Origin: Methylorubrum extorquens
GTDB lineage: Bacteria > Pseudomonadota > Alphaproteobacteria > Rhizobiales > Beijerinckiaceae
Length of the DNA: 64,000 bases
Assembly (NCBI RefSeq): GCF_024169925.1
Contig: NZ_JALJXF010000001.1
Span: 1,246,001-1,310,000, forward strand
Reading direction: 5' to 3'
Shown: piece by piece, positions 19,202 to 51,561 of the stretch
Numbering within the stretch: position 1 is the stretch's first letter
Layout: each line of letters begins with the position of its first letter
The notes under the pieces: model-generated
Seen by the model: the letters and a program-made list of their open reading frames with translations, nothing else
Databases searched by the model: none
Told to the model about the DNA's origin: nothing
Position numbers and translations under genes: made by a program

Positions 19202-19253
19202 AATGGTCGGAGTGGCCGGACTTGAACCGACGACCCCCTGTCCCCCAGACAGG
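19202..19253 (-). repeat. Right att-like direct repeat within tRNA-Pro
   Basis: 52 bp identical to 14491-14542. It covers the 3' CCA end through the anticodon arm of the intact tRNA-Pro. With the left copy it defines the probable integration core of the element. Confidence 0.9.
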
Positions 19254-19280
19254 TGCGCTACCGGGCTGCGCTACACTCCG
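19204..19280 (-). tRNA. tRNA-Pro (anticodon GGG)
   Basis: 77 nt on the minus strand. Acceptor arms CGGAGTG and CACTCCG pair fully; D arm GCGCAGCCCGGTAGCGC; anticodon stem CCTGT/ACAGG around the loop CTGGGGG, giving anticodon GGG; T arm GTCGG TTCAAGT CCGGC; discriminator A and an encoded CCA. It is the intact copy at an element junction; its 3' part is contributed by the element side and remains perfect. Confidence 0.96.
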
Positions 19281-40974: not shown

Positions 40975-41595
40975 TCAGCGAAGATCCGCGACGAGGCTGA
41001 CGACCGAGCTGCCAAGGGTCGTGACGCCGGTCGTGACACCGGTCGCCGCGCCGGAGCCTGCGCTGCGGGCCGCATCCCAGACCGCATCGACGGCAGCGAA
41101 GGGGAGGGCGCCGGCCGGCAGGAAGCGACCACCCTCTTCCTCGACGCGGGCCATGGCGGCCGGCGCTGAGACGACCGGCTCGGAGGCAGCTTTCGGCGGG
41201 CTCGCCGGCTGCGTCGTCGCCATCCGGCTGGCGGAGGGGCGGCGGCGCTCGGCGCGGGCGGCGAGGCGCGGGGGACGAGCCGGCGGTGCGGCGGCCTCGC
41301 TCGCAGCGACGAGGGGCACGAGGCGGGCGAAGGCTTCGCTCGCCGGCCCCGCCTCGACATCGGCGAGCAGGGCCTTGCCCGGATCGAACGCCGTGAAGCC
41401 GGGCGCCGCGGCCATGGCCGGAACGGGCCGCGCCGATTCGACCGGCGCCATCATCGGCTCCTTGGCCGGCTCGCGGCAGACGAGCGACAGCAGGGCAGCG
41501 ACCACGGCAAGGCCGAGGGTCGGCAGCAAGGGAGGAAGCACGGCGCGAGGGGTCGCGGACACGTCCGGCTTCCGCAGCGGATCGACGACGCGCAT
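40975..41595 (-). CDS. Membrane-anchored Ala/Pro-rich protein of unknown function
   Basis: 206 aa from ATG 41595, supported by GGGAGG 8 nt upstream. One N-terminal hydrophobic segment (PLLPTLGLAVVAALLSLVC), then a long disordered, Ala/Pro/Arg-rich region, ending in a small helical or beta segment GAATGVTTGVTTLGSSVVSLVADLR. No family recognised. It is divergent from nasT with 238 bp between. The 214-bp gap to the GH15 gene holds nothing clear. Confidence 0.6.
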   Translation of the reverse strand: MRVVDPLRKPDVSATPRAVLPPLLPTLGLAVVAALLSLVCREPAKEPMMAPVESARPVPAMAAAPGFTAFDPGKALLADVEAGPASEAFARLVPLVAASEAAAPPARPPRLAARAERRRPSASRMATTQPASPPKAASEPVVSAPAAMARVEEEGGRFLPAGALPFAAVDAVWDAARSAGSGAATGVTTGVTTLGSSVVSLVADLR

Positions 41596-41833
41596 GAACC
41601 GGCCCTCCCCATAGATTCGCGAACGACTTGAGTGTGCGCCCCGGTTTGCGGCAGAAGCGGGGCCGGCCTATGTCGGTTTGTAACCGTCGCTGCGGATCGG
41701 GCGGGCATACGGCTTGCCTGCGATGCGTCCGCCCCTCACACGGCAGGCGCCTCCGCACTTGCCTTACTCGAGACGGACCGCCCCTCGTTAACCCCATGCC
41801 TTCCTCGAACGGATCGAACCGCTCCGGCCCTCG

Positions 41834-42421
41834 ATGACCGAGACCAGCCTCACCGTCGCCGTTATCGATCCGAGTCGCGCCCGCGCGGCGATCCTGGAGG
41901 AGGGCCTTCGCGCCTCCGGCGTCGGCAACGTCGTCGTGCTTGCGGATGGGCCTGACCTTCAGGCGCGGGTGGCGAGCCTGAAGCCCGACGTGATCGTGGT
42001 CCATCTGGAGAGCCCGAGCCGGGACATGCTGGAGCAGATGTCGGGCCTGTCCCGGCACGCCGAGCGGCCGGTGGCGATGTTCGTGGACCGCTCGGACCAG
42101 ACCATGATGCAGGCCGCGGTCGATGCGGGCATCTCAGCCTATGTGGTGGACGGGCTGCGCTCGGAACGGATCCGGCCGATCCTCGACATCGCGATCCTGC
42201 GCTTCAACGCCTTCGCCCGGCTCCAGCGCGAACTCGACGAGGCCCGCTCGGAACTCGCCGACCGCAAGCTGATCGAGCGGGCCAAGGGCATCCTGATGAC
42301 GCGCAAGGGCATGAGCGAGGACGAGGCCTACAAGCTCCTGCGGCGGCAGGCGATGAACGAGAAGCGCAAGATCGTCGACATCGCCCGCGCCATCGTCACC
42401 GCGGCGGATCTGCTCGGATGA
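41834..42421 (+). CDS. nasT: NasT-type ANTAR transcription antiterminator
   Basis: 195 aa. Receiver-like N-terminus (about 1-120) and a C-terminal ANTAR RNA-binding domain (about 135-190: RKLIERAKGILMTRKGMSEDEAYKLLRRQAMNEKRKIVDIARAIV). In this family ANTAR binds two-hairpin leader RNAs and prevents termination. The site normally holding the phospho-acceptor Asp reads VVHLESPSRD, giving His57, so it is a pseudo-receiver. NasT is held by NasS (next gene, ATGA overlap) until nitrate or nitrite binds. A matching terminator leader is present 1.2 kb downstream, before the transporter operon. Confidence 0.93.
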   Translation: MTETSLTVAVIDPSRARAAILEEGLRASGVGNVVVLADGPDLQARVASLKPDVIVVHLESPSRDMLEQMSGLSRHAERPVAMFVDRSDQTMMQAAVDAGISAYVVDGLRSERIRPILDIAILRFNAFARLQRELDEARSELADRKLIERAKGILMTRKGMSEDEAYKLLRRQAMNEKRKIVDIARAIVTAADLLG

Positions 42422-43449
42422 GGATCAGGCTCGGATACGTTCCCCTCACCGACGCCGCCCCCGTGATCGCGGCGGCGGAGCTCGGGTTCGCGCGGGCCGA
42501 GGGGCTCGAGATCGAACTCGCGCGCGAGCCCTCCTGGGCGACCCTGCGCGACCGGCTGGCGCTCGGCCATCTCGACGCCGCGCACATGCTCGGTCCGCTG
42601 GCCATCGCCAGCGCGCTCGGGCTCTCGGGGCCGCAGGCCCGCCTGAGCGTGCCGATGGCGCTCGGCCTCAACGGCAACGCCGTCACCGTCTCGAACGCGC
42701 TCTGGGCCGCGATGGCCCCGGAGAGCGACGAACTCGGCGATGTCGCCGCGGCCTTCGCCCGGGTCGCCCGCAAGCGGGCCGGGGAGGGGCGTCCGCTGGT
42801 CATCGGCACCGTGCATCCCTTCTCCAGCCATTCCTACCAGCTCCGCCTGTTCGCCGGCTTGAGCGGGCTCGACCTCGACGCAACGGTGCGGCTGGTCGTG
42901 GTGCCGCCGCCGGAGACGGTGGATGCGCTCCGGCGCGGGCGCATCGACGGCTTCTGCGTCGGCGCCCCCTGGAACAGCGTCGCCGTCACCGCCGGTCTCG
43001 GCCGGATCGCGGCACTCGGCTGCGAGATCGCCCCCGATTGCCCTGAGAAGGTGCTGGCGCTACCCGCGGAGGAGGCCGAGTTCACGGCGCCGTTGGTCCG
43101 GGCCGTTCACCAAGCCGGGCTTTGGTGCGCCGATCCTGCCAACCGCGGCGCCCTGAGCCGCCTGCTCGCCGAGCGCGCGGATCTCGATTCCGACGCCGCG
43201 CTCATCGCCCGCAGCCTCGGCGGCACGCTCATCGTGGATGCGACCGGAACCGAGCGGGTAAACCCGGCCTATCTGCGCCTCGGCGCCGCGACTCATCGGC
43301 CGGACCCGGACCATGGGCGCTGGCTGGTGGCGCAGATGATCGCCTGCGGGCAGGTCGCGCCGGGCAGCGATGCGGCCGAGAGGGCGGCAGCGCTCTACAG
43401 GCCGGATCTGTTCGAGGCAGCCACGAAGGGACCCGCCACCAAGCGATAG
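42418..43449 (+). CDS. nasS: NasS-type nitrate/nitrite sensor (NrtA-like binding protein)
   Basis: 343 aa, no signal peptide, so cytoplasmic, unlike the homologous NrtA. RLGYVPLTDAAPVIAAAELGFARAEGL and GHLDAAHMLGPLAIASALGL are typical of the NrtA/NasS fold, with PFSSHSYQLRLF and RRGRIDGFCVGAPWNS in the second lobe. In the absence of nitrate or nitrite it sequesters NasT; ligand binding releases it. It overlaps nasT by 4 nt, ensuring balanced amounts. The gap after it contains the regulated leader. Confidence 0.93.
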   Translation: MRIRLGYVPLTDAAPVIAAAELGFARAEGLEIELAREPSWATLRDRLALGHLDAAHMLGPLAIASALGLSGPQARLSVPMALGLNGNAVTVSNALWAAMAPESDELGDVAAAFARVARKRAGEGRPLVIGTVHPFSSHSYQLRLFAGLSGLDLDATVRLVVVPPPETVDALRRGRIDGFCVGAPWNSVAVTAGLGRIAALGCEIAPDCPEKVLALPAEEAEFTAPLVRAVHQAGLWCADPANRGALSRLLAERADLDSDAALIARSLGGTLIVDATGTERVNPAYLRLGAATHRPDPDHGRWLVAQMIACGQVAPGSDAAERAAALYRPDLFEAATKGPATKR

Positions 43450-43513
43450 GCGCCCGTTTCGCTCCGGCGGGATCGGCTCAAACTGCGCAAGACAGCACCA
43501 TCAGCCTGTTTTT

Positions 43514-43526
43514 TGTGCAACGCACA
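43514..43526. promoter_or_regulatory. Candidate NtrC-type upstream dyad
   Basis: TGTGC-AAC-GCACA, a perfect dyad 84 bp upstream of the sigma-54 -24 element. NtrC sites are TGCAC-like inverted repeats; this resembles a shortened one. Assigned on symmetry and position only. Confidence 0.4.
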
Positions 43527-43610
43527 CGAATGCCGCGTTTTTCAACGCGTGCGGCGGGGCAGACATCCCGACGCGGCGAGCCGAGGACCGCCAAACATGC
43601 CGTCCCGCAC

Positions 43611-43627
43611 TTGGCACGGCTCCTGCA
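43611..43627 (+). promoter_or_regulatory. Sigma-54 (RpoN) promoter of the nitrate transporter operon
   Basis: TTGGCACGGCTCCTGCA matches the -24/-12 consensus with GG and GC exactly 10 bp apart; the -12 part is CTGC instead of TTGC. The start of transcription is expected near 43638, giving a leader of about 145 nt before nrtA. Sigma-54 use implies NtrC control by nitrogen status. Confidence 0.8.
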
Positions 43628-43670
43628 AAGCCCTTGGCACGGGCCCGCCAACGACGACGCGCCCCAAACG

Positions 43671-43749
43671 TCAGCAAGGCCGCTGATCCGGAATGCCCGC
43701 ACGCGACGAATGTCGATCGCGCAGGCGATCCCCGGACAGCGGCTTTTTT
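43671..43749 (+). promoter_or_regulatory. NasT-responsive antitermination leader: hexaloop hairpin overlapping an intrinsic terminator
   Basis: A 5-bp hairpin TCAGC-(AAGGCC)-GCTGA (43671-43686) has a six-base loop with A at position 1 and G at 4, the pattern bound by ANTAR proteins. Its right arm overlaps the left arm of a terminator, GCCGCTGATCCGG (43679-43691) with CCGGACAGCGGC (43732-43743), followed by TTTTTT (43744-43749). The two structures exclude each other, as required for antitermination. A possible first hairpin TTGGC-(ACGGGCCC)-GCCAA lies at 43634-43651, but would start upstream of the predicted transcript start. Confidence 0.75.
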
Positions 43750-43782
43750 CATGTGCGGACACCGCACCGGAGCGAAGAGCGG

Positions 43783-45078
43783 ATGAGCATCGATCACGGC
43801 AACACGACCCGCCGCGGCGTCCTCAAGGGGGCGGCGGCCGCCCTCGCCCTCGCGGGTGCCGCCCGCGCCGCCTTGCCGGCCGGTGCCTTCGCGCAGGGCG
43901 CGGGGCCGGAGGTGAAGGGGGTCAAGCTCGGCTTCATCGCGCTGACCGACGCCGCGCCGCTCTTCGTGGCCAAGGAGAAGGGCATCTTCGCCAAGTACGG
44001 CCTGCCCGAGACCGAGGTGCTGAAGCAGGCCTCCTGGGGCACGACCCGCGACAACCTCGTGCTGGGCTCCGAGGGCAACGGCATCGACGGCGCCCACATC
44101 CTCACGCCGATGCCGTACCTGATCTCGGCCGGCAAGGTGACGCAGAACAACGTGCCGGTGCCGATGTACATCCTCGGCCGGCTCAACCTGAACGGCCAGT
44201 GCATCTCGGTCGGCAAGGAATACGCCGACGACAAGATCGGCCTCGACCCCAAGGCCTTCAAAGCCGCCATCGACCGGAAGAAGGCCTCGGGCAAGCCGGT
44301 CAAGGCCGCCATGACCTTCCCCGGCGGCACCCACGACCTCTGGATCCGCTACTGGATGGCCGCCGGCGGCATCGACCCCGACAAGGACATCGAGACCATC
44401 GTCGTGCCCCCGCCCCAGATGGTGGCGAACATGAAGGTCGGCACGATGGACGTGTTCTGCGTCTGCGAGCCCTGGCACAAGCAGCTGATCAACCAGGGCA
44501 TCGGCTACACCGCGCTGACCACGGGCGAGCTCTGGAAGGACCATCCCGAGAAGTCGCTCGCGCTGCGCGCCGCCTGGGTCGACAAGTATCCGAACGCGGC
44601 CAAGGCCCTGCTGATGGCCGTGATGGAAGCCCAGGCTTGGTGCGACCGGCCCGAGAACTGGGACGAACTCGCAGCCATCGTCGCCAAGCGCCAGTGGATC
44701 AACGTGCCGGTCGGCGACGTGATCGAGCGGATGAAGGGCAAGTTCGACTACGGCAACGGCCGCGTCGTCGAGAAGAGCCCGGTGATGATGAAGTACTGGG
44801 ACAACGGCGCCGCCGGCTATCCCTTCCACAGCCACGACCTCTGGTTCCTCACCGAGGACATCCGCTGGGGCAAGTTCGACGCGGCAACCGACACCAAGGC
44901 GCTCATCGCCAAGGTGAACCGCGAGGACCTGTGGAAGGACGCCGCCAAGGCGCTCGGCGGGATCGCGATCCCGGCCTCCACCTCGCGGGGCAAGGAGACC
45001 TTCTTCGACGGCAAGGTCTTCGACCCCGAGAACCCCGCCGCCTACCTCGCCAGCCTCGACATCAAGAAGGTCGCGTAA
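43783..45078 (+). CDS. nrtA: Nitrate/nitrite ABC transporter substrate-binding protein
   Basis: 431 aa from ATG 43783. A Tat signal (NTTRRGVLKGAAAALALAG, cleavage about 38) marks periplasmic export. The mature protein has the NrtA pattern: KLGFIALTDAAPLFVAKEKGIFAKYGL, GNGIDGAHILTPMPYLISAG, FPGGTHDLWIRYWMAAGGI and MKVGTMDVFCVCEPWH. Binds nitrate or nitrite and delivers it to the NrtB permease. It is the first gene of the operon behind the sigma-54/NasT leader and overlaps nrtB by 1 nt. Paralogue of nasS two genes upstream. Confidence 0.94.
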   Translation: MSIDHGNTTRRGVLKGAAAALALAGAARAALPAGAFAQGAGPEVKGVKLGFIALTDAAPLFVAKEKGIFAKYGLPETEVLKQASWGTTRDNLVLGSEGNGIDGAHILTPMPYLISAGKVTQNNVPVPMYILGRLNLNGQCISVGKEYADDKIGLDPKAFKAAIDRKKASGKPVKAAMTFPGGTHDLWIRYWMAAGGIDPDKDIETIVVPPPQMVANMKVGTMDVFCVCEPWHKQLINQGIGYTALTTGELWKDHPEKSLALRAAWVDKYPNAAKALLMAVMEAQAWCDRPENWDELAAIVAKRQWINVPVGDVIERMKGKFDYGNGRVVEKSPVMMKYWDNGAAGYPFHSHDLWFLTEDIRWGKFDAATDTKALIAKVNREDLWKDAAKALGGIAIPASTSRGKETFFDGKVFDPENPAAYLASLDIKKVA

Positions 45079-45941
45079 TGGCCACCGGAGCAACGCTTTC
45101 CACCGCGGCGCGGGCGCGCGCCGCCACCAAGGCCCGCACGCCCTTCGTCACCATGGCCGGCCTCCGCGGGATCGCGGCCCGCATCGTCCCGCCGCTCGTG
45201 GTGCTCGCGGGCTTCCTGCTGCTGTGGGAGGTCCTGTGCTCCTCCCCCACCGCCGGCCTGCCGCCGCCCTCGCGGGTGGTGACGGAGGCCTGGGACATCA
45301 TCGTCGATCCGTTCTACGACAACGGCGGCACCGACAAGGGCCTGTTCTGGCATATCACGGCGAGCCTCAAGCGCGTCGCCTTCGGCTTCTCGCTGGCGGT
45401 GATCGCGGGCGTGATGCTCGGCACCCTGGTGGGCCAGTCAGAATGGGCGATGCGGGGCCTCGACCCGATCTTCCAGGTGCTGCGCACGATCCCGCCGCTG
45501 GCGTGGCTCCCGCTCTCGCTCGCCGCCTTCCGCGACGGCCAGCCCTCGGCGATCTTCGTGATCTTCATCACCTCGATCTGGCCAATCATCATCAACACGG
45601 CGGTCGGCATCCGCAACATCCCGCAGGATTACCGCAACGTCGCCGCGGTGATCCGGCTGAACCCGATCGAGTTCTTCTACAAGGTCATGCTGCCCTCGGC
45701 CGCCCCCTACATCTTCACCGGACTTCGCATCGGTGTCGGCCTGTCCTGGCTCGCGATCGTCGCGGCCGAGATGCTGATCGGCGGCGTCGGGATCGGCTTC
45801 TTCATCTGGGACGCGTGGAACTCCTCCCACATCTCCGAGATCATCGTCGCCCTCGTCTATGTCGGGCTCATCGGCTTCGTCCTCGACCGGCTGGTCGCCG
45901 GCGTCGGCGTGCTCGTGACCCGCGGCACCAGCGCAGCCTGA
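45078..45941 (+). CDS. nrtB: Nitrate ABC transporter permease
   Basis: 287 aa, about six membrane spans; ATG 45078 sits in TAATG with the nrtA stop. The EAA-type cytoplasmic loop is visible in RNVAAVIRLNPIEFFYKVMLPSAAPYIFTGLRIGVGLSW, characteristic of the NrtB/SsuC/TauC family. It forms the transmembrane channel with the ATPase encoded next (13 bp gap) and receives nitrate from NrtA. Confidence 0.94.
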   Translation: MATGATLSTAARARAATKARTPFVTMAGLRGIAARIVPPLVVLAGFLLLWEVLCSSPTAGLPPPSRVVTEAWDIIVDPFYDNGGTDKGLFWHITASLKRVAFGFSLAVIAGVMLGTLVGQSEWAMRGLDPIFQVLRTIPPLAWLPLSLAAFRDGQPSAIFVIFITSIWPIIINTAVGIRNIPQDYRNVAAVIRLNPIEFFYKVMLPSAAPYIFTGLRIGVGLSWLAIVAAEMLIGGVGIGFFIWDAWNSSHISEIIVALVYVGLIGFVLDRLVAGVGVLVTRGTSAA

Positions 45942-45954
45942 GGGACAAAACCAC

Positions 45955-46749
45955 ATGGCCCATCTCTCCCTCTCCCAGGTCGGCATCTCGTTCCGCCGCG
46001 GCGGCACCACGTCGGAAGTCCTGCGCGACGTGAACCTCGACATCGCCAAGGGCGAGTTCGTCTCGATCATCGGCCATTCGGGCTGCGGCAAGTCGACGGT
46101 GCTCAACATCGTCGCCGGCCTGCTCAAGGCCTCGACCGGCGGCGTGCTGCTCGATGGACGTGAAGTGAACGCGCCCGGCCCCGACCGCGCGGTGGTGTTC
46201 CAGAACCACTCGCTCCTGCCCTGGCTGACGGTGCGCGAGAACGTGGCGCTCGCCGTCGACAAGGTGCTGCGCGGCAAGAAGAGCCGCGCGGAGCGCACCG
46301 AGTGGATCGAGCACAACCTCGCGCTCGTGAACATGATGCACGCCGCCGAGAAGCGCCCGGCCGAAATCTCCGGCGGCATGAAGCAGCGCGTCGGCATCGC
46401 CCGCGCGCTGGCCATGGAGCCGACCGTGCTGCTCATGGACGAGCCGTTCGGCGCACTCGACGCGCTGACCCGCGCCCACCTGCAGGATCAGACCATGGAA
46501 ATCCAGCAGCGGCTCAAGAACACCGTCATCATGATCACCCACGACGTGGACGAGGCGGTGCTGCTCTCGGACCGCATCGTGATGATGACGAACGGGCCGT
46601 CGGCCACCATCGGCGAGATCCTGCCCGTGCCGCTGGCGCGCCCCCGCCGCCGGCTCGACCTCGTGGAAGACGCTACCTACGTCCACGCCCGCGCCGCGGT
46701 GCTGGAATTCCTCTACGCCCGCCACGCCAAGCCGGCTCTGGCGGCCTAA
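45955..46749 (+). CDS. nrtC: Nitrate ABC transporter ATP-binding protein
   Basis: 264 aa. Walker A GHSGCGKST, signature EISGGMKQRVGIARAL, Walker B VLLMDEPFGALD and the switch His in MITHDVDEAVLLSD are all intact. It lacks the C-terminal NrtA-like regulatory domain of cyanobacterial NrtC, so it corresponds to the short (NrtD-like) form. It energises uptake through NrtB. A long inverted repeat follows before the next gene. Confidence 0.93.
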   Translation: MAHLSLSQVGISFRRGGTTSEVLRDVNLDIAKGEFVSIIGHSGCGKSTVLNIVAGLLKASTGGVLLDGREVNAPGPDRAVVFQNHSLLPWLTVRENVALAVDKVLRGKKSRAERTEWIEHNLALVNMMHAAEKRPAEISGGMKQRVGIARALAMEPTVLLMDEPFGALDALTRAHLQDQTMEIQQRLKNTVIMITHDVDEAVLLSDRIVMMTNGPSATIGEILPVPLARPRRRLDLVEDATYVHARAAVLEFLYARHAKPALAA

Positions 46750-46785: not shown

Positions 46786-46889
46786 CATCCTGAGGTGCCG
46801 CGTAGCGGCCTCGAAGGAGGGCTCCGGGGATCGCAAGACATCTGGAGCCCTCCTTCGAGGCCTCCGCTGCGCTCCGGCACCTCAGGATG
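46786..46889. repeat. Long interrupted inverted repeat (intergenic repeat element)
   Basis: Outer arms CATCCTGAGGTGCCG and CGGCACCTCAGGATG (15 bp) and inner arms GGCCTCGAAGGAGGGCTCC and its complement (19 bp) are perfect; the middle of each arm differs by a short indel. The 104-bp block fills the gap between the transporter ATPase and the FAD protein. The motif is familiar as a dispersed intergenic palindrome in several alphaproteobacteria. It may form a stable mRNA hairpin that lowers expression of the downstream reductase genes or stabilises the upstream mRNA. Confidence 0.85.
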
Positions 46890-46925
46890 AGGGGGCGGAA
46901 TGGACCAGTCCAACAAAGTATCCCG

Positions 46926-48161
46926 ATGTCGTCAGATACCCAGACCATGAAGGAAAGACTCGTCGTCGTCGGCAACGGCATGGCCTCGCTCCGCTTCCTC
47001 GAGCGGCTGACCGAGCGCGCGCCGGGCCGCTACGACGTGACGGTGGTCGGCGCCGAGCCGGTGGCGGCCTATAACCGGGTGCTGCTCTCCTCGCTGCTCG
47101 GCGGCGAGGTGGACGAGGCGGCCTGCGGCTTCCGCCCGCTCTCCTGGTACGAGGAGCACGGCATCCGCCTCGTCACCGGCGCGCCGGTGACCGAGATCGA
47201 CCGGGCGAACCGCATCGCCCTCGTCGGCTCCGCCCATGTGCTGCCCTACGACAAGCTGGTGCTGGCGGTGGGCTCGCTGCCGATCCGGCTGCCGCTGCCG
47301 GGCATCGACCTGCCCGGCGTCCTCACCTTCCGCGATTTCGCCGACGTGGCGGCGATCCGCAAAGCGGCCGTCGAGCATGCCAAGGCCGTGGTGATCGGCG
47401 GCGGCCTGCTTGGGCTCGAGGCCGCGGTCGGGCTCGCCCGGCTCGGGGTCGACACGACCCTGGTCCACGTCATGGACCGGGTGATGGAGCGCCAGCTCGA
47501 CCACGCCGCCGCCCGCCTCGTGCGCACGGCGATGGAGGCCCGCGGCGTCAAGGTGATGCTGTCGGCCGACACCGCCGCGATCGAGGGCGACGGGCGCGTC
47601 GAACGCCTGCGGATGAAGGACGGCAGCGTGATCCCGGCCGACCTCGTGGTGATGTCGGTCGGCATCCGCGCCTCGACGGCCCTGGCGCAGTCCTGCGGGC
47701 TCGCCTGCGGGCGCGGCATCACGGTGGACGACCGAATGACAACCTCCGACCCGGCGATCCATGCACTCGGCGAATGCGCCGAGCACCGGGGCGTCGTTTA
47801 CGGCCTCGTCGAGCCCGCCTACGAGCAGGCCGAGGTGCTGTCGCGGGCCCTTCTCGGCGAGGCGGCGGCCTATCCCGGCACGTCCCTTGCCACGAGCCTC
47901 AAGGTGTCGGGCGTAGCCGTCTTCTCGGCCGGATTGGTCGATACGCCCGAGGGCGCCGAGGCGGTCGTGATGCACGACGGCGCCGCCGGCCTCTACCGCA
48001 AGCTGATCATCGCCGATGGCCGCCTCTTAGGCGCGGTCTTCGTCGGCGATATCGCGGAGCAGGCGCGCTGCAAGGAGCTGATCCGCTCCGGCGCGCCGCT
48101 CTCCCCAGACGACCGGGACGACCTGATGTTCGGCCCGGCCCCGAAAACCCTCGCAGCGTGA
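46926..48161 (+). CDS. NirB-like FAD/NAD-dependent oxidoreductase
   Basis: 411 aa from ATG 46926 (ATG 46947 possible). N-terminal RLVVVGNGMASLRFLERL is the FAD motif seen in NirB and NasB-type nitrite reductase large subunits, followed by AYNRVLLSSLLGGE and the NAD motif KAVVIGGGLLGLEAAVGLARLG. The C-terminal region contains ITVDDRMTTSDPAIHALGECAEHRG. It stops before the BFD-type [2Fe-2S] and sulfite-reductase parts of NirB, so only the flavin half is present. Likely supplies electrons to the siroheme enzyme next to it, or to an assimilatory nitrate reductase not in the window. Confidence 0.85.
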   Translation: MSSDTQTMKERLVVVGNGMASLRFLERLTERAPGRYDVTVVGAEPVAAYNRVLLSSLLGGEVDEAACGFRPLSWYEEHGIRLVTGAPVTEIDRANRIALVGSAHVLPYDKLVLAVGSLPIRLPLPGIDLPGVLTFRDFADVAAIRKAAVEHAKAVVIGGGLLGLEAAVGLARLGVDTTLVHVMDRVMERQLDHAAARLVRTAMEARGVKVMLSADTAAIEGDGRVERLRMKDGSVIPADLVVMSVGIRASTALAQSCGLACGRGITVDDRMTTSDPAIHALGECAEHRGVVYGLVEPAYEQAEVLSRALLGEAAAYPGTSLATSLKVSGVAVFSAGLVDTPEGAEAVVMHDGAAGLYRKLIIADGRLLGAVFVGDIAEQARCKELIRSGAPLSPDDRDDLMFGPAPKTLAA

Positions 48162-48169
48162 GTGAGGCG

Positions 48170-49960
48170 ATGGCAGACGAATTCAACGCCGAGCAGAAGC
48201 GGTATCTCGAAGGCTTCGCCTCCGGCATCGCCGCCGCCCGCATGACCGGTGGCCTTGCCGCGGGCCAAGCCCCGGTGAGCACGCCGGCCGAGCCCACGGG
48301 CCCGGATGCGATCCATATCAAGGCGCAGATCCGCACCGTGCAGGAGGGCGGCAAGCTCTGCGATCAGGAGAAGTGGAAGCGCGCCGAGAGCCCGTTCGAC
48401 GGCCATAACCGCCTGAAGGCGGAGGCTGCGACTGGCAAGGCTCCGAAGCCCGAGGACAATTTCCGCTGGCGTTACCACGGCATGTTCTGGGTTGCGCCGA
48501 CCCAGACGTCCTTCATGTGCCGGATACGGGTTCCCAACGGCATCCTGAATCACTGGCAATTCGCCGGCCTCGCCGACCTCGCGGATGCCCATGGCGGCGC
48601 GTACAGCCACGTCACCACCCGCGCGGGCCTGCAGGTGCGCGAGATCGCGCCCGAACACGCCCAGCCCTTCCTCGACGGGCTGATCGATCTCGGCCTGACC
48701 GCGCAAGGTGCGGGCGCCGACAACATCCGCAACGTCACCGGCTCGCCGGCCGCCGGCATCGACGCGCGGGAACTGCTGGACACGCGGCCTCTCACCAAGG
48801 CTTGGCACAACTGGATCCTGAACGACCGCTCGCTCTACGGCCTGCCGCGCAAGTTCAACGTCTCGTTCGACGGCGGCGGCGTAACGCCGGCGCTCGAAGA
48901 GACGAACGACATCGGCTTCCAGGCGATCGAGGTGCTGGAGGGGGCCGCGGTCGCGCCGGGCGTCTGGATGCGCCTCGTGCTCGGCGGCATCTCCGGCCAC
49001 AAGGATCTGGCCCGCGACACCGGCATCGTCCTCAAGCCCGAGGATTGCAATCGCGTGGCCGACGCGATCATCCGGGTCTTCATCGAGAACGGCGACCGGA
49101 CCAATCGCAACAAGGCCCGGATGAAGTACGTCCTCGACGCCTGGGGCTTCGACAAGTACATCGCCGCCGTCGAGGAGAAGCTCGGGCGCACGCTCGACCG
49201 GGTCGACGCCGCCCATGTCGCGCCCCGCCGGCCGACCGACCGCTTCAGCCATGTGGGCGTCCACGCCCAGGCCCAGCCCGGCCTGAACTGGGTCGGCGTG
49301 GTGCTGCCCGTGGGCAAGATGACCACCGACCAGATGCGCGGGCTAGCGAAGGTCGCGGCCGAGTGCGGCGACGGCCAGATCCGCATGACGGTCTGGCAGA
49401 ACTTCATCTTTTCCGGCGTGCCGGACGCCAAGGTGGCGGAGGTCGAGGCCCGCGTGGAAGCGCTCGGCCTCACCATCAAGGCCGCCGGCATCCGCTCCGG
49501 GCTCGTGGCCTGCACCGGCGCCCGCGGCTGCAAGTTCGCCGCCTCCGACACCAAGGGCCACGCGATGATCATCGCGGATCACGTCGAGCGCACCGTGCCG
49601 GCGCTGGACGTGCCGGTGAACGTCCACCTCACCGGCTGCCACCATAGCTGCGCCCAGCACTACATCGGCGATATCGGCCTGATCGGCGCGAAGGTCGTCG
49701 TCTCGGAAGAGGGCGACACCGTCGAGGGCTACGACATCGTCGTCGGCGGCGGCTTCGCCGAGAACCCGAAGATCGGCACCGAGATCTGGAAGGCGGTGAA
49801 GGCCGAGGATGCGGCGACCCGCGTCGAGGCGCTGCTCAACGCCTATCTCGCCCGCCGCCAGGGCCCGGAGGAGAGCTTCCAGGCCTTCACCGCGCGCACC
49901 GGCCCCGAAGCCCTGCGCGACGCCGCCGAAGAACAACCCGCCCTCAGAGCCGCCGCATGA
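48170..49960 (+). CDS. Siroheme / 4Fe-4S nitrite reductase (NirA-type)
   Basis: 596 aa (GTG 48158, overlapping the previous stop, is an alternative start). Six-electron reduction of nitrite to ammonium in the cytoplasm. The siroheme-[4Fe-4S] ligands are two Cys pairs, CTGARGC (C-x5-C) and CHHSC (C-x3-C). The two half-repeats are visible (RIRVPNGILNHWQFAGLADLADAHGG and GVVLPVGKMTTDQMRGLAKVAAECG). The N-terminal extension of about 90 aa is typical of proteobacterial NirA. A sulfite reductase is the alternative, but the nas/nrt context argues for nitrite. It overlaps the flavoprotein gene by 4 nt. Confidence 0.9.
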   Translation: MADEFNAEQKRYLEGFASGIAAARMTGGLAAGQAPVSTPAEPTGPDAIHIKAQIRTVQEGGKLCDQEKWKRAESPFDGHNRLKAEAATGKAPKPEDNFRWRYHGMFWVAPTQTSFMCRIRVPNGILNHWQFAGLADLADAHGGAYSHVTTRAGLQVREIAPEHAQPFLDGLIDLGLTAQGAGADNIRNVTGSPAAGIDARELLDTRPLTKAWHNWILNDRSLYGLPRKFNVSFDGGGVTPALEETNDIGFQAIEVLEGAAVAPGVWMRLVLGGISGHKDLARDTGIVLKPEDCNRVADAIIRVFIENGDRTNRNKARMKYVLDAWGFDKYIAAVEEKLGRTLDRVDAAHVAPRRPTDRFSHVGVHAQAQPGLNWVGVVLPVGKMTTDQMRGLAKVAAECGDGQIRMTVWQNFIFSGVPDAKVAEVEARVEALGLTIKAAGIRSGLVACTGARGCKFAASDTKGHAMIIADHVERTVPALDVPVNVHLTGCHHSCAQHYIGDIGLIGAKVVVSEEGDTVEGYDIVVGGGFAENPKIGTEIWKAVKAEDAATRVEALLNAYLARRQGPEESFQAFTARTGPEALRDAAEEQPALRAAA

Positions 49961-51561
49961 CCCAGCACGTCGCGCCCCCGCTCGTTCTCATCCCCGAGAG
50001 CGCCCCGTTCAACGCCGACCAGCGTTCCTGGCTGTCGGGCTACTTCGCCGCGCTCCTCGGCCCCGCCGTGGAAGGCGCCACCGCGCTCGCCCCCGGCGAA
50101 GCGCCCTCGACAGGCCCGACGCTCGCCGACAACGACGACGCGCCCTGGCACGACCCGTCGATGCCGATCAACGACCGCATGGCGATCGCCAAGGACCGTT
50201 CCGAGCCGCAGAAGTTGATGGCCGCCATGGCCCAGCAAGATTGCGGACAGTGCGGCTACAACTGCGCCGACTATGCCAACGCGATCTTCCTCAAGAGCGA
50301 GGAGCGGCTGAACCTTTGCCAGCCCGGCGGTAAGGAAACGCTCCGGATGCTGAAGAAGCTCGACGAGGAGTTCGGCGCCGCGGGTGGCACGGCCGCTCCG
50401 AAGGCGGAGGCGGGCGACGCTCCGAAGAAGGAGCCGGAACTCGGGCCGCTGGGCTTCTGCCGCGAGAACCCGGTCGAGGCGACCTTCCTCTCCCGCACGC
50501 GCCTCAACGCGCCGGGCGGCGAGAAGGAGACGTGGCACATCGAGATCGACTTGGCGGACACGCCGATCACCTACGAGGCGGGCGATTCCCTCGGCCTGTT
50601 CCCGGCCAACGCCCCGGCCCTGGTCGATGCGGTCATCGCCGAACTCGGCACGCGGCCCGAGCGGATGATCGCGGGCAAGACCCTGCGCGACCGGCTGCTG
50701 ACCGAGTATTCGCTCGGGGCGGCGCCGGACAACCTCTATCAACTCCTCTCGCTCCTGACCTCGGGCCCCGCCCGGAAGAAGGCGCAGGCGCTCGCGGCCG
50801 GCGAGGATCCGGACGGCGATGCGCAGCATCTCGACGTGCTCGGCGCGCTCCACAAGTTCCCCGGTGCGCGACCCGATGCCGAGGTCTTCTTGGAGGCGCT
50901 CGACGAGTTGCAGCCGCGGCTCTACTCGATCTCCTCGTCGCCGAAGATGGATACCGGCCGGGTTTCGCTCACCGTCGATGCGGTGCGCTACAACCACCGC
51001 TCGCGGCTGCGCCTCGGCGTCGCCTCCACGCATCTCGGCGAGCGCCTGCCCGAGCAGACCAAAGTCCGGATCTACCTGCAGAAGGCGCACGGCTTCGGCC
51101 TGCCGGAGGATGCGGGCAAGGACGTGATCATGTGCGGCCCCGGCACCGGCGTCGCCCCGTTTCGCTCCTTCCTGCGCGAGCGGGCGGCGACGAAGGCGCC
51201 CGGCCGCAACTGGCTGTTCTACGGCCACCAGCGGCAGGCGACCGACTTCTTCTACAAGGACGAGCTGAACGGCCTGAAGGACGAGAAGGTGCTGACTCGC
51301 CTCTCGCTCGCTTGGTCGCGCGACGGCACGGAAAAGACCTACGTGCAGGACCGGATGCGCGAGAACGGCGCCGAGCTGTGGAAGTGGCTAGAGGGCGGTG
51401 CCCACTTCTACGTCTGCGGCGATGCCAAGCGCATGGCCAAGGACGTGGAGCGGGCGATCATCGACGTCGCCGCGCAGTTCGGCGGCAAGAACCCCGACGA
51501 GGCCGTGGCCTACCTCGCCGCCCTGAAGAAGACGGGGCGCTATCAGGCGGACGTGTACTGA
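49957..51561 (+). CDS. Fe-S/flavoprotein reductase (CysJ-like FNR module with N-terminal 4Fe-4S domain)
   Basis: 534 aa. Instead of the flavodoxin domain of CysJ it has an RnfB-type Fe-S segment: C96, C99, C103 (DCGQCGYNCADYA) and C121 followed by PGG. After an Ala/Lys linker comes the FAD-binding and NADPH-binding part (RLYSISSSPKMDTGRVSLTV, MCGPGTGVAPFRSFLRERA, YVCGDAKRMAKDVERA, C-terminal GRYQADVY). Probably an NADPH-dependent electron donor to the NirA enzyme whose gene it overlaps (ATGA), removing the need for free ferredoxin. Often labelled sulfite reductase alpha subunit; context favours nitrite. Confidence 0.88.
   Translation: MTQHVAPPLVLIPESAPFNADQRSWLSGYFAALLGPAVEGATALAPGEAPSTGPTLADNDDAPWHDPSMPINDRMAIAKDRSEPQKLMAAMAQQDCGQCGYNCADYANAIFLKSEERLNLCQPGGKETLRMLKKLDEEFGAAGGTAAPKAEAGDAPKKEPELGPLGFCRENPVEATFLSRTRLNAPGGEKETWHIEIDLADTPITYEAGDSLGLFPANAPALVDAVIAELGTRPERMIAGKTLRDRLLTEYSLGAAPDNLYQLLSLLTSGPARKKAQALAAGEDPDGDAQHLDVLGALHKFPGARPDAEVFLEALDELQPRLYSISSSPKMDTGRVSLTVDAVRYNHRSRLRLGVASTHLGERLPEQTKVRIYLQKAHGFGLPEDAGKDVIMCGPGTGVAPFRSFLRERAATKAPGRNWLFYGHQRQATDFFYKDELNGLKDEKVLTRLSLAWSRDGTEKTYVQDRMRENGAELWKWLEGGAHFYVCGDAKRMAKDVERAIIDVAAQFGGKNPDEAVAYLAALKKTGRYQADVY

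Follow-up and report, generated by a model that had tools for sequence, protein, structure and literature searches.

A predicted sigma-54 start and NasT-type two-hexaloop leader before the nrtABC-nirB-nirA operon of Methylorubrum extorquens

In a 64 kb stretch of Methylorubrum extorquens DNA (hereafter the window), the leader at positions 43611–43749, placed between the end of nasS (43449) and the start of nrtA (43783), very probably subjects the operon nrtABC-nirB-nirA to two successive steps of control, i.e., a start at a sigma-54 promoter followed by antitermination, in which NasT would bind two hairpins with six-base loops (hexaloops). The promoter, both hairpins (P1 and P2), a terminator exclusive of P2, conservation across the genus and a single ANTAR protein in the genome are all observed in the sequence. 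The preliminary description of this DNA had proposed a sigma-54 promoter and a NasT-type hexaloop/terminator switch before nrtA, based on a −24/−12 promoter with GG-N10-GC spacing, a TCAGC(AAGGCC)GCTGA hairpin with A and G at loop positions 1 and 4 (A1/G4), a terminator ending in T6 whose left arm overlaps that hairpin, and nasT-nasS directly upstream. Each of these elements is indeed present, the hairpin being P2, and the arrangement is kept across the genus, the home genome having rpoN and ntrC as well as a single ANTAR match. The features of the leader are as follows (nt, nucleotides):

43511–43525, + strand: putative enhancer-protein site TTTTGTGCAACGCAC, about 100 nt 5′ of the promoter
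43612–43627, + strand: sigma-54 promoter TGGCACGGCTCCTGCA, with GG at 43613–43614, N10 and GC at 43625–43626; predicted start 43638
43641–43664, + strand: P1 hairpin GGGCCCGCC(AACGAC)GACGCGCCC, hexaloop 43650–43655 (A1, G4), closing pair C43649-G43656
43670–43687, + strand: P2 hairpin GTCAGC(AAGGCC)GCTGAT, hexaloop 43676–43681 (A1, G4), C-G closing pair
43676–43749, + strand: intrinsic terminator, left arm 43676–43691 (P2 loop and 3′ strand), right arm 43732–43746, T6 43744–43749

The promoter combines GG-N10-GC spacing with the TGGCAC/TGCA context, and the home genome encodes RpoN and an NtrC (690.9 bits, cut-off 558.6). TGGCACGGCTCCTGCA is the only exact copy of TGGCAC-N6-TGCA in the window and the only site there, on either strand, to reach 11 of the 12 positions of the sigma-54 consensus; with one mismatch allowed, the pattern occurs at three sites, against 3.0 in shuffled sequences. 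The start at 43638 lies 12 nt after the GC, following the usual −12 rule. Regarding the putative enhancer-protein site, TTTTGTGCA is found exactly in 27 of 65 genus upstream regions and with at most one mismatch in 46, where base-composition shuffles give 0.1 and 0.6, an enrichment inflated by the relatedness of these regions, and TTTTGTGCANNGCAC has a single exact copy in the home genome, at 43511–43525. GCAC-N7-GTGC is enriched in the same 65 regions (exact in 5 vs. 0.4 expected; at most one mismatch in 32 vs. 11.8) and has no match in the window, while TGCACC-N5-GGTGCA is not enriched (none of the 65 at up to one mismatch).

Counted from the predicted start, P1 spans +4 to +27; it belongs to the minimum-energy fold and is also the part of the leader that aligns as the hairpin of the Rfam family RF03032 (“narK RNA”). 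It had been described as unclear and as beginning before the transcript start; it begins after 43638, and it was hard to spot because two of its nine pairs are non-standard here (C43648/A43657 and C43645/C43660). P2 follows after a linker of 5 nt, with a loop-to-loop distance of 20 nt (19–23 nt in 34 nrtA leaders), and is mutually exclusive with the terminator, an overlap characteristic of ANTAR dual-hexaloop elements; the leader also has the two C-G-closed A1/G4 hexaloops and the short linker of such elements, and its genome the cognate ANTAR protein. A simple terminator scan missed 43676–43749 because it permits loops of 3–8 only. An A1/G4 hexaloop on a stem of at least five, overlapping a seven-base terminator arm with T5, is present once in the window (both strands) and in none of 40 first-order Markov shuffles.

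Folding of the leader, which had been put forward as a check, supports the switch: the fold is better than those of 200 of 200 shuffles (z −2.93), and RNA prefixes ending at 43687, 43700, 43720 and 43737 retain P1 and P2, until the addition of 43738–43744 makes the terminator replace P2 (−48.8 vs. −37.9 kcal/mol with P2 forced). Since the terminator wins by fold, P2 would need to be held, by about 11 kcal/mol with these parameters, for read-through to occur. NasT would be the obvious agent holding it; it is the sole ANTAR match at E 0.001 across the 5.26 Mb home genome, and its gene ends 1.2 kb 5′ of the leader.

A NasS search over 59 genomes of the genus gave a match in all of them (58 better than 1e-100), the nearest named relatives by NasS being Methylobacterium and Methylorubrum. 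Among 30 loci, 21 have nrtA in reach, and every one of these 21 has the promoter, the two hexaloops and an arm resembling that of a terminator. The nine loci without an nrtA match in reach (L003, L012, L019, L022–L024, L026, L027 and L030) were omitted from this 21-row set, and each of their genomes has a match to R1, a covariance model built on the 21 rows and limited to P1, linker and P2, with no promoter letters. R1 matches all 59 genus genomes, 38 of which had given it no row, with 69 matches in all at E no higher than 0.05; in the home genome, there is one significant match (69.5 bits), the next scoring 17.9 bits (E 2.3). In 65 of the 69 matches, a sigma-54 site (10 or 11 of 12) is present whose GC ends 18–23 nt before loop 1, and the four matches without such a site have E 0.002 or worse.

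Judging from the alignments, the P1 helix is kept by compensatory change in related leaders. These comprised the 21 genus leaders and 31 RF03032-type loci (38 places listed, 32 taken and the genus locus L053 omitted, all within L032–L063), of which 8 and 22, respectively, entered an alignment of 30 leaders (A2), the 22 coming from elsewhere in the phylum. On A2, the P1 covariation score reaches 0.835, against 0.228 (standard deviation 0.034) in shuffles, none of 500 reaching it, and 0.172 at most when the helix is slid, and two-sided cells number 71 vs. 23.6; the structure was derived partly from the same sequences, which favours the percentage paired, and the shuffles ignore relatedness. A2 misplaces P2 between the two groups, so that P1 alone was counted on it. 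Within the genus, P1 and P2 together score 0.234 vs. 0.183 (0/500 shuffles), a smaller excess. Two-sided change affects one of six P2 pairs in the genus and one of four in the RF03032-type loci (24 of the 31 forming a further alignment, A3); P2 is nearly invariant and thus lends the pairing little support.

The switch would then operate as follows. Under nitrogen limitation, the sigma-54 promoter would start transcription of nrtABC-nirB-nirA, probably with NtrC, and the 5′ end of the RNA would fold at once, P1 first, P2 next. As long as no NasT is free, the arm 43737–43743 would invade P2, leading to the terminator and a stop near 43749. Nitrate or nitrite would cause NasS to release NasT, which would bind the A1/G4 hexaloops of P1 and then P2, so that P2 would be held, the terminator blocked and the operon read. 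We infer that the operon would require both nitrogen shortage and nitrate, which fits published work on relatives.

Within the genus, the leader exists in three forms. Form A, before nrtA in 34 places including the window, has A1/G4 in loop 1 and in loop 2 in 34/34, with a T4 run downstream in 33/34. Form B, before a NirB-like gene in 24 places (L104, L107–L123, L125–L127 and L129–L131), has A1/G4 in loop 1 throughout (24/24), while its loop 2 reads GAGGCC in 23 and GAGGCT in one, G at position 1 breaking the A1 rule. The second hairpin of form B folds with 7 bp around a loop of four bases; moving the register by 3 nt, to C(AGCGAG)G, would however regain A1/G4 over a T/C mismatch. A T4 run is present in 22/24. 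Form C, before nrtA in seven places (L132–L137 and L139), has the promoter and A1/G4 in both loops in 7/7; a T4 run occurs over roughly the following 100 nt in 1/7 and behind a complementary arm in none, and six of the seven genomes carry form B too. An automatic terminator test (T after the arm) retained 18/34, 21/24 and 0/7 of forms A, B and C, respectively, and was judged too strict because it tracks the longest match of the arm. Outside the genus, second loops with G at position 1 were noticed in L038 (GAAGAC) and L060 (GATGAC), among the 31 RF03032-type loci, and in L189.

The consensus of RF03032 opens with GG-N10-GC, followed, at a distance similar to that in the window, by a hexaloop hairpin (AACGGC); unlike our leader, only P1 is drawn as paired. 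In 29 of the 31 RF03032-type loci, loop 1 is an A1/G4 loop closed by C-G and GG-N10-GC lies 20–27 nt ahead of it, a count subject to bias since the promoter is part of the Rfam model; GG-N10-GC lies additionally at 29 nt in one of these loci and at 31 nt in two. A second loop GAC(AxxGxx)G(T/C)C is found in 29/31, and a T4 run after the loop in 29/31. For 20 of these loci, no other Rfam family is over threshold, and 11 of the 20 reach the narK threshold. RF03032 itself has matches in 2 of 190 class genomes, none over threshold, and in 21 of 398 phylum genomes, 16 over threshold. The family looks like the same promoter and ANTAR module, i.e., a sigma-54 promoter, P1, an undrawn P2 and a terminator. 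No paper linking narK RNA to ANTAR was found, the original motif description lying outside that search, so that prior notice is possible. More tentatively, and with somewhat more doubt than confidence, RF03032 and the window leader may form one module with P1 at the RNA 5′ end, split in the genus into forms A, B and C, of which B would run on one canonical hexaloop and C would act via Rho, translation or the like. Two peculiarities of the RF03032-type loci are worth reporting. In L057, L058 and L059, P2 stands before assimilatory-nitrate-reductase-like genes and has an A/C mismatch at the second pair below the loop, mirroring the C/A mismatch of the window P1. L054 (element 1501–1570, − strand, and just upstream) carries three consecutive A1/G4 hexaloops and lacks a sigma-54 site at the position usual in the other loci.

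A second promoter-free model (R2), built from 24 RF03032-type loci, matches 113 of the 398 phylum genomes at E 0.01, many weak matches being probably due to chance. Among 31 further phylum matches of this type (E up to 1e-4, qualifying ones in G566, G511 and G522 left out), a sigma-54 site lies 21–29 nt before loop 1 in 10 and 32–45 nt before it in 10, and is absent from 11, five of which also have no T run and are probably chance matches. A T run is present in 26 of the 31; among these, 20 show a sigma-54 site 21–45 nt before loop 1 (19 scoring at least 10, where about 0.01 such sites are expected per 40 nt). A fixed promoter–P1 spacing as a general law is rejected by the matches at 32–45 nt or without a site; these spacings indicate that the tight spacing belongs to the genus and the RF03032 group.

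Several observations weigh against a sigma-54 start followed by two-hexaloop antitermination. P1 has two-sided change in six of seven pairs, which is not above shuffles (5.5; 298/500 reach it), so that its excess is confined to the score, the cells and the pair types. Directly below the P1 closing pair, the C/A mismatch is found in 11 of 34 nrtA leaders, with C/T in a twelfth (among 20 distinct nrtA-leader rows, the second P1 pair is T-A in 11, while 9 have a mismatch there). Eight one-mismatch copies of TTTTGTGCANNGCAC exist in the genome, none near a sigma-54 site scoring at least 10, which gives no tie between the upstream site and NtrC. The Rfam search advocated in the preliminary description did align P1 as the RF03032 hairpin, but the leader scores 24.7 bits, below the gathering threshold of 43.2 (E 0.018 over 701 bases; 0.0041 over 161 bases); membership by score is accordingly rejected and only a shared architecture is claimed. 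R1, over the 31 RF03032-type loci, gives at best 16.1 bits (E 0.1) at the element, and R2 has no match in the home genome, window included. Lastly, 6 of the 26 similar phylum leaders with a T run have no sigma-54 site; set against the 20 that do, they suggest that dual control is common, not universal.

These points have to be read along with three other explanations of the leader. That the main transcription comes from upstream, by nasTS read-through or from a sigma-70 promoter, the −24/−12 site not being the main start, appears quite improbable: nasS ends just 162 nt before the promoter and the sequence is compatible with read-through, but a simple scan found no sigma-70-like site in 41500–44500 (0.2 expected), and the spacing between a sigma-54 site and P1 is preserved in most matches of the promoter-free R1 (65/69). 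The leader would still function on read-through RNA. It is highly improbable that P2 alone is used and P1 has decayed, the single-hexaloop working contemplated earlier. The C/A and C/C mismatches do leave inner runs of one and two pairs in P1, and one hexaloop is the minimal binding unit of EutV (PMC8934654); the same source holds, however, that termination is prevented only if the EutV dimer touches each of the hexaloops, and P1 has a C-G-closed A1/G4 hexaloop, with loop 1 A1/G4 in 34/34 nrtA leaders, and a helix that belongs to the minimum-energy fold and covaries. As for a constitutive terminator or operon punctuation after nasS, free of NasT control, it is in its favour that the hairpin is strong, has T6 and separates two blocks of genes, but this terminator is part of a conserved leader that follows a promoter, and the A1/G4 of the P2 loop, kept in 34/34 nrtA leaders, would be needless for a plain terminator, which makes this explanation extremely improbable.

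With the sigma-54 start and two-hexaloop antitermination thus preferred, the home genome would offer an apparent one-to-one nitrate switch (one ANTAR match, one significant RNA target), handy for clean tests. Form B (nirB) and the terminator-less form C provide a natural way of asking whether an ANTAR protein really depends on two A1/G4 hexaloops plus an intrinsic terminator. Our interpretation of RF03032 suggests that an orphan family is partly promoter DNA rather than RNA, which curators could redraw. These by-products of the genus comparison, i.e., the identity of RF03032 and forms B and C, may matter more than the window leader itself.

The genes around the leader are the following:

41834–42421, + strand: nasT, with response-regulator-like and ANTAR domains, likely RNA-binding antiterminator (Pfam ANTAR 76.7 bits, Response_reg 32.5 bits)
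42418–43449, + strand: nasS, NMT1_2/NrtA-like nitrate/nitrite sensor (Pfam NMT1_2 212.7 bits), overlapping nasT by 4 bases
43783–45078, + strand: nrtA, nitrate ABC transporter binding protein (Pfam NMT1_2 358.2 bits), named by operon context
45078–45941, + strand: nrtB permease, start approximate (NCBIfam TIGR01183 325.1 bits)
45955–46749, + strand: nrtC/D ATPase (NCBIfam TIGR01184 354.9 bits)
46887–48161, + strand: NirB-like FAD/NAD(P)H subunit (NCBIfam TIGR02374 408.6 bits, short of the 578.35 cut-off, matching just the model's N-terminal half)
48161–49960, + strand: NirA-family siroheme reductase, start approximate (NCBIfam NF007126 1048.5 bits)
49957–51561, + strand: CysJ-like flavoprotein, final gene of the apparent operon (NCBIfam NF004859 930.1 bits)

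The nearest PDB relatives of NasT, which include ANTAR antiterminators, are a putative antiterminator (1s8n), a response regulator (6wsh, which is EutV; PMC8934654), a nitrate regulatory protein (4akk) and AmiR (1qo0), while the role of NasS as nitrate/nitrite sensor is taken from PMC3795266. Elsewhere in the window, a tRNA gene at 19207–19280 (− strand) is the sole Rfam match over threshold.

Among known systems, the nasF operon of Klebsiella oxytoca has a sigma-54/NtrC promoter. Like the window leader, the nasF leader has two C-G-closed A1/G4 hairpins, both recognised by NasR, the second overlapping the terminator of a nitrate operon (PMC7496416). It differs in that the one-component NasR senses nitrate itself, whereas here NasS should sense and NasT bind the RNA. 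Azotobacter vinelandii nasAB and Pseudomonas aeruginosa nirBD are reportedly subject to NasT antitermination. In Bradyrhizobium, for which a NasT regulon is described, the nosR and nirA leaders resemble that of the window in undergoing NasT antitermination in nitrate or nitrous-oxide operons (PMC6759348). The NasT leaders of these three organisms differ from ours in host and operon order.

In Paracoccus denitrificans, nasTS likewise lie upstream of the nasA leader, nitrate or nitrite splits NasS-NasT and NasT binds that leader (PMC3795266). Regulation of nas there involves leader hairpins plus NtrB/NtrC, mutation of a leader hairpin or of ntrB impairing nitrate growth or nas expression (PMC5424462); the hairpin I mutant and the nasT mutant fail alike on nitrate, and the ntrB mutant lowers nas genes (PMC3795266, PMC5424462). 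Unlike in Paracoccus denitrificans, the −24/−12 promoter of the window stands within the leader itself. The nas genes of Pseudomonas stutzeri are under NtrC (PMC8443478). The EutV element of Enterococcus faecalis eut shares with our leader the defining two-hexaloop architecture and mechanism (PMC3369931, PMC8934654); the EutV dimer is proposed to bind P1 and move to P2, a longer linker abolishing the effect (PMC8934654), and the signal differs, being ethanolamine via EutV phosphorylation. Given that both NasT/NasR antitermination and general nitrogen control are published for relatives, the window leader takes its place among the ANTAR dual-hexaloop leaders.
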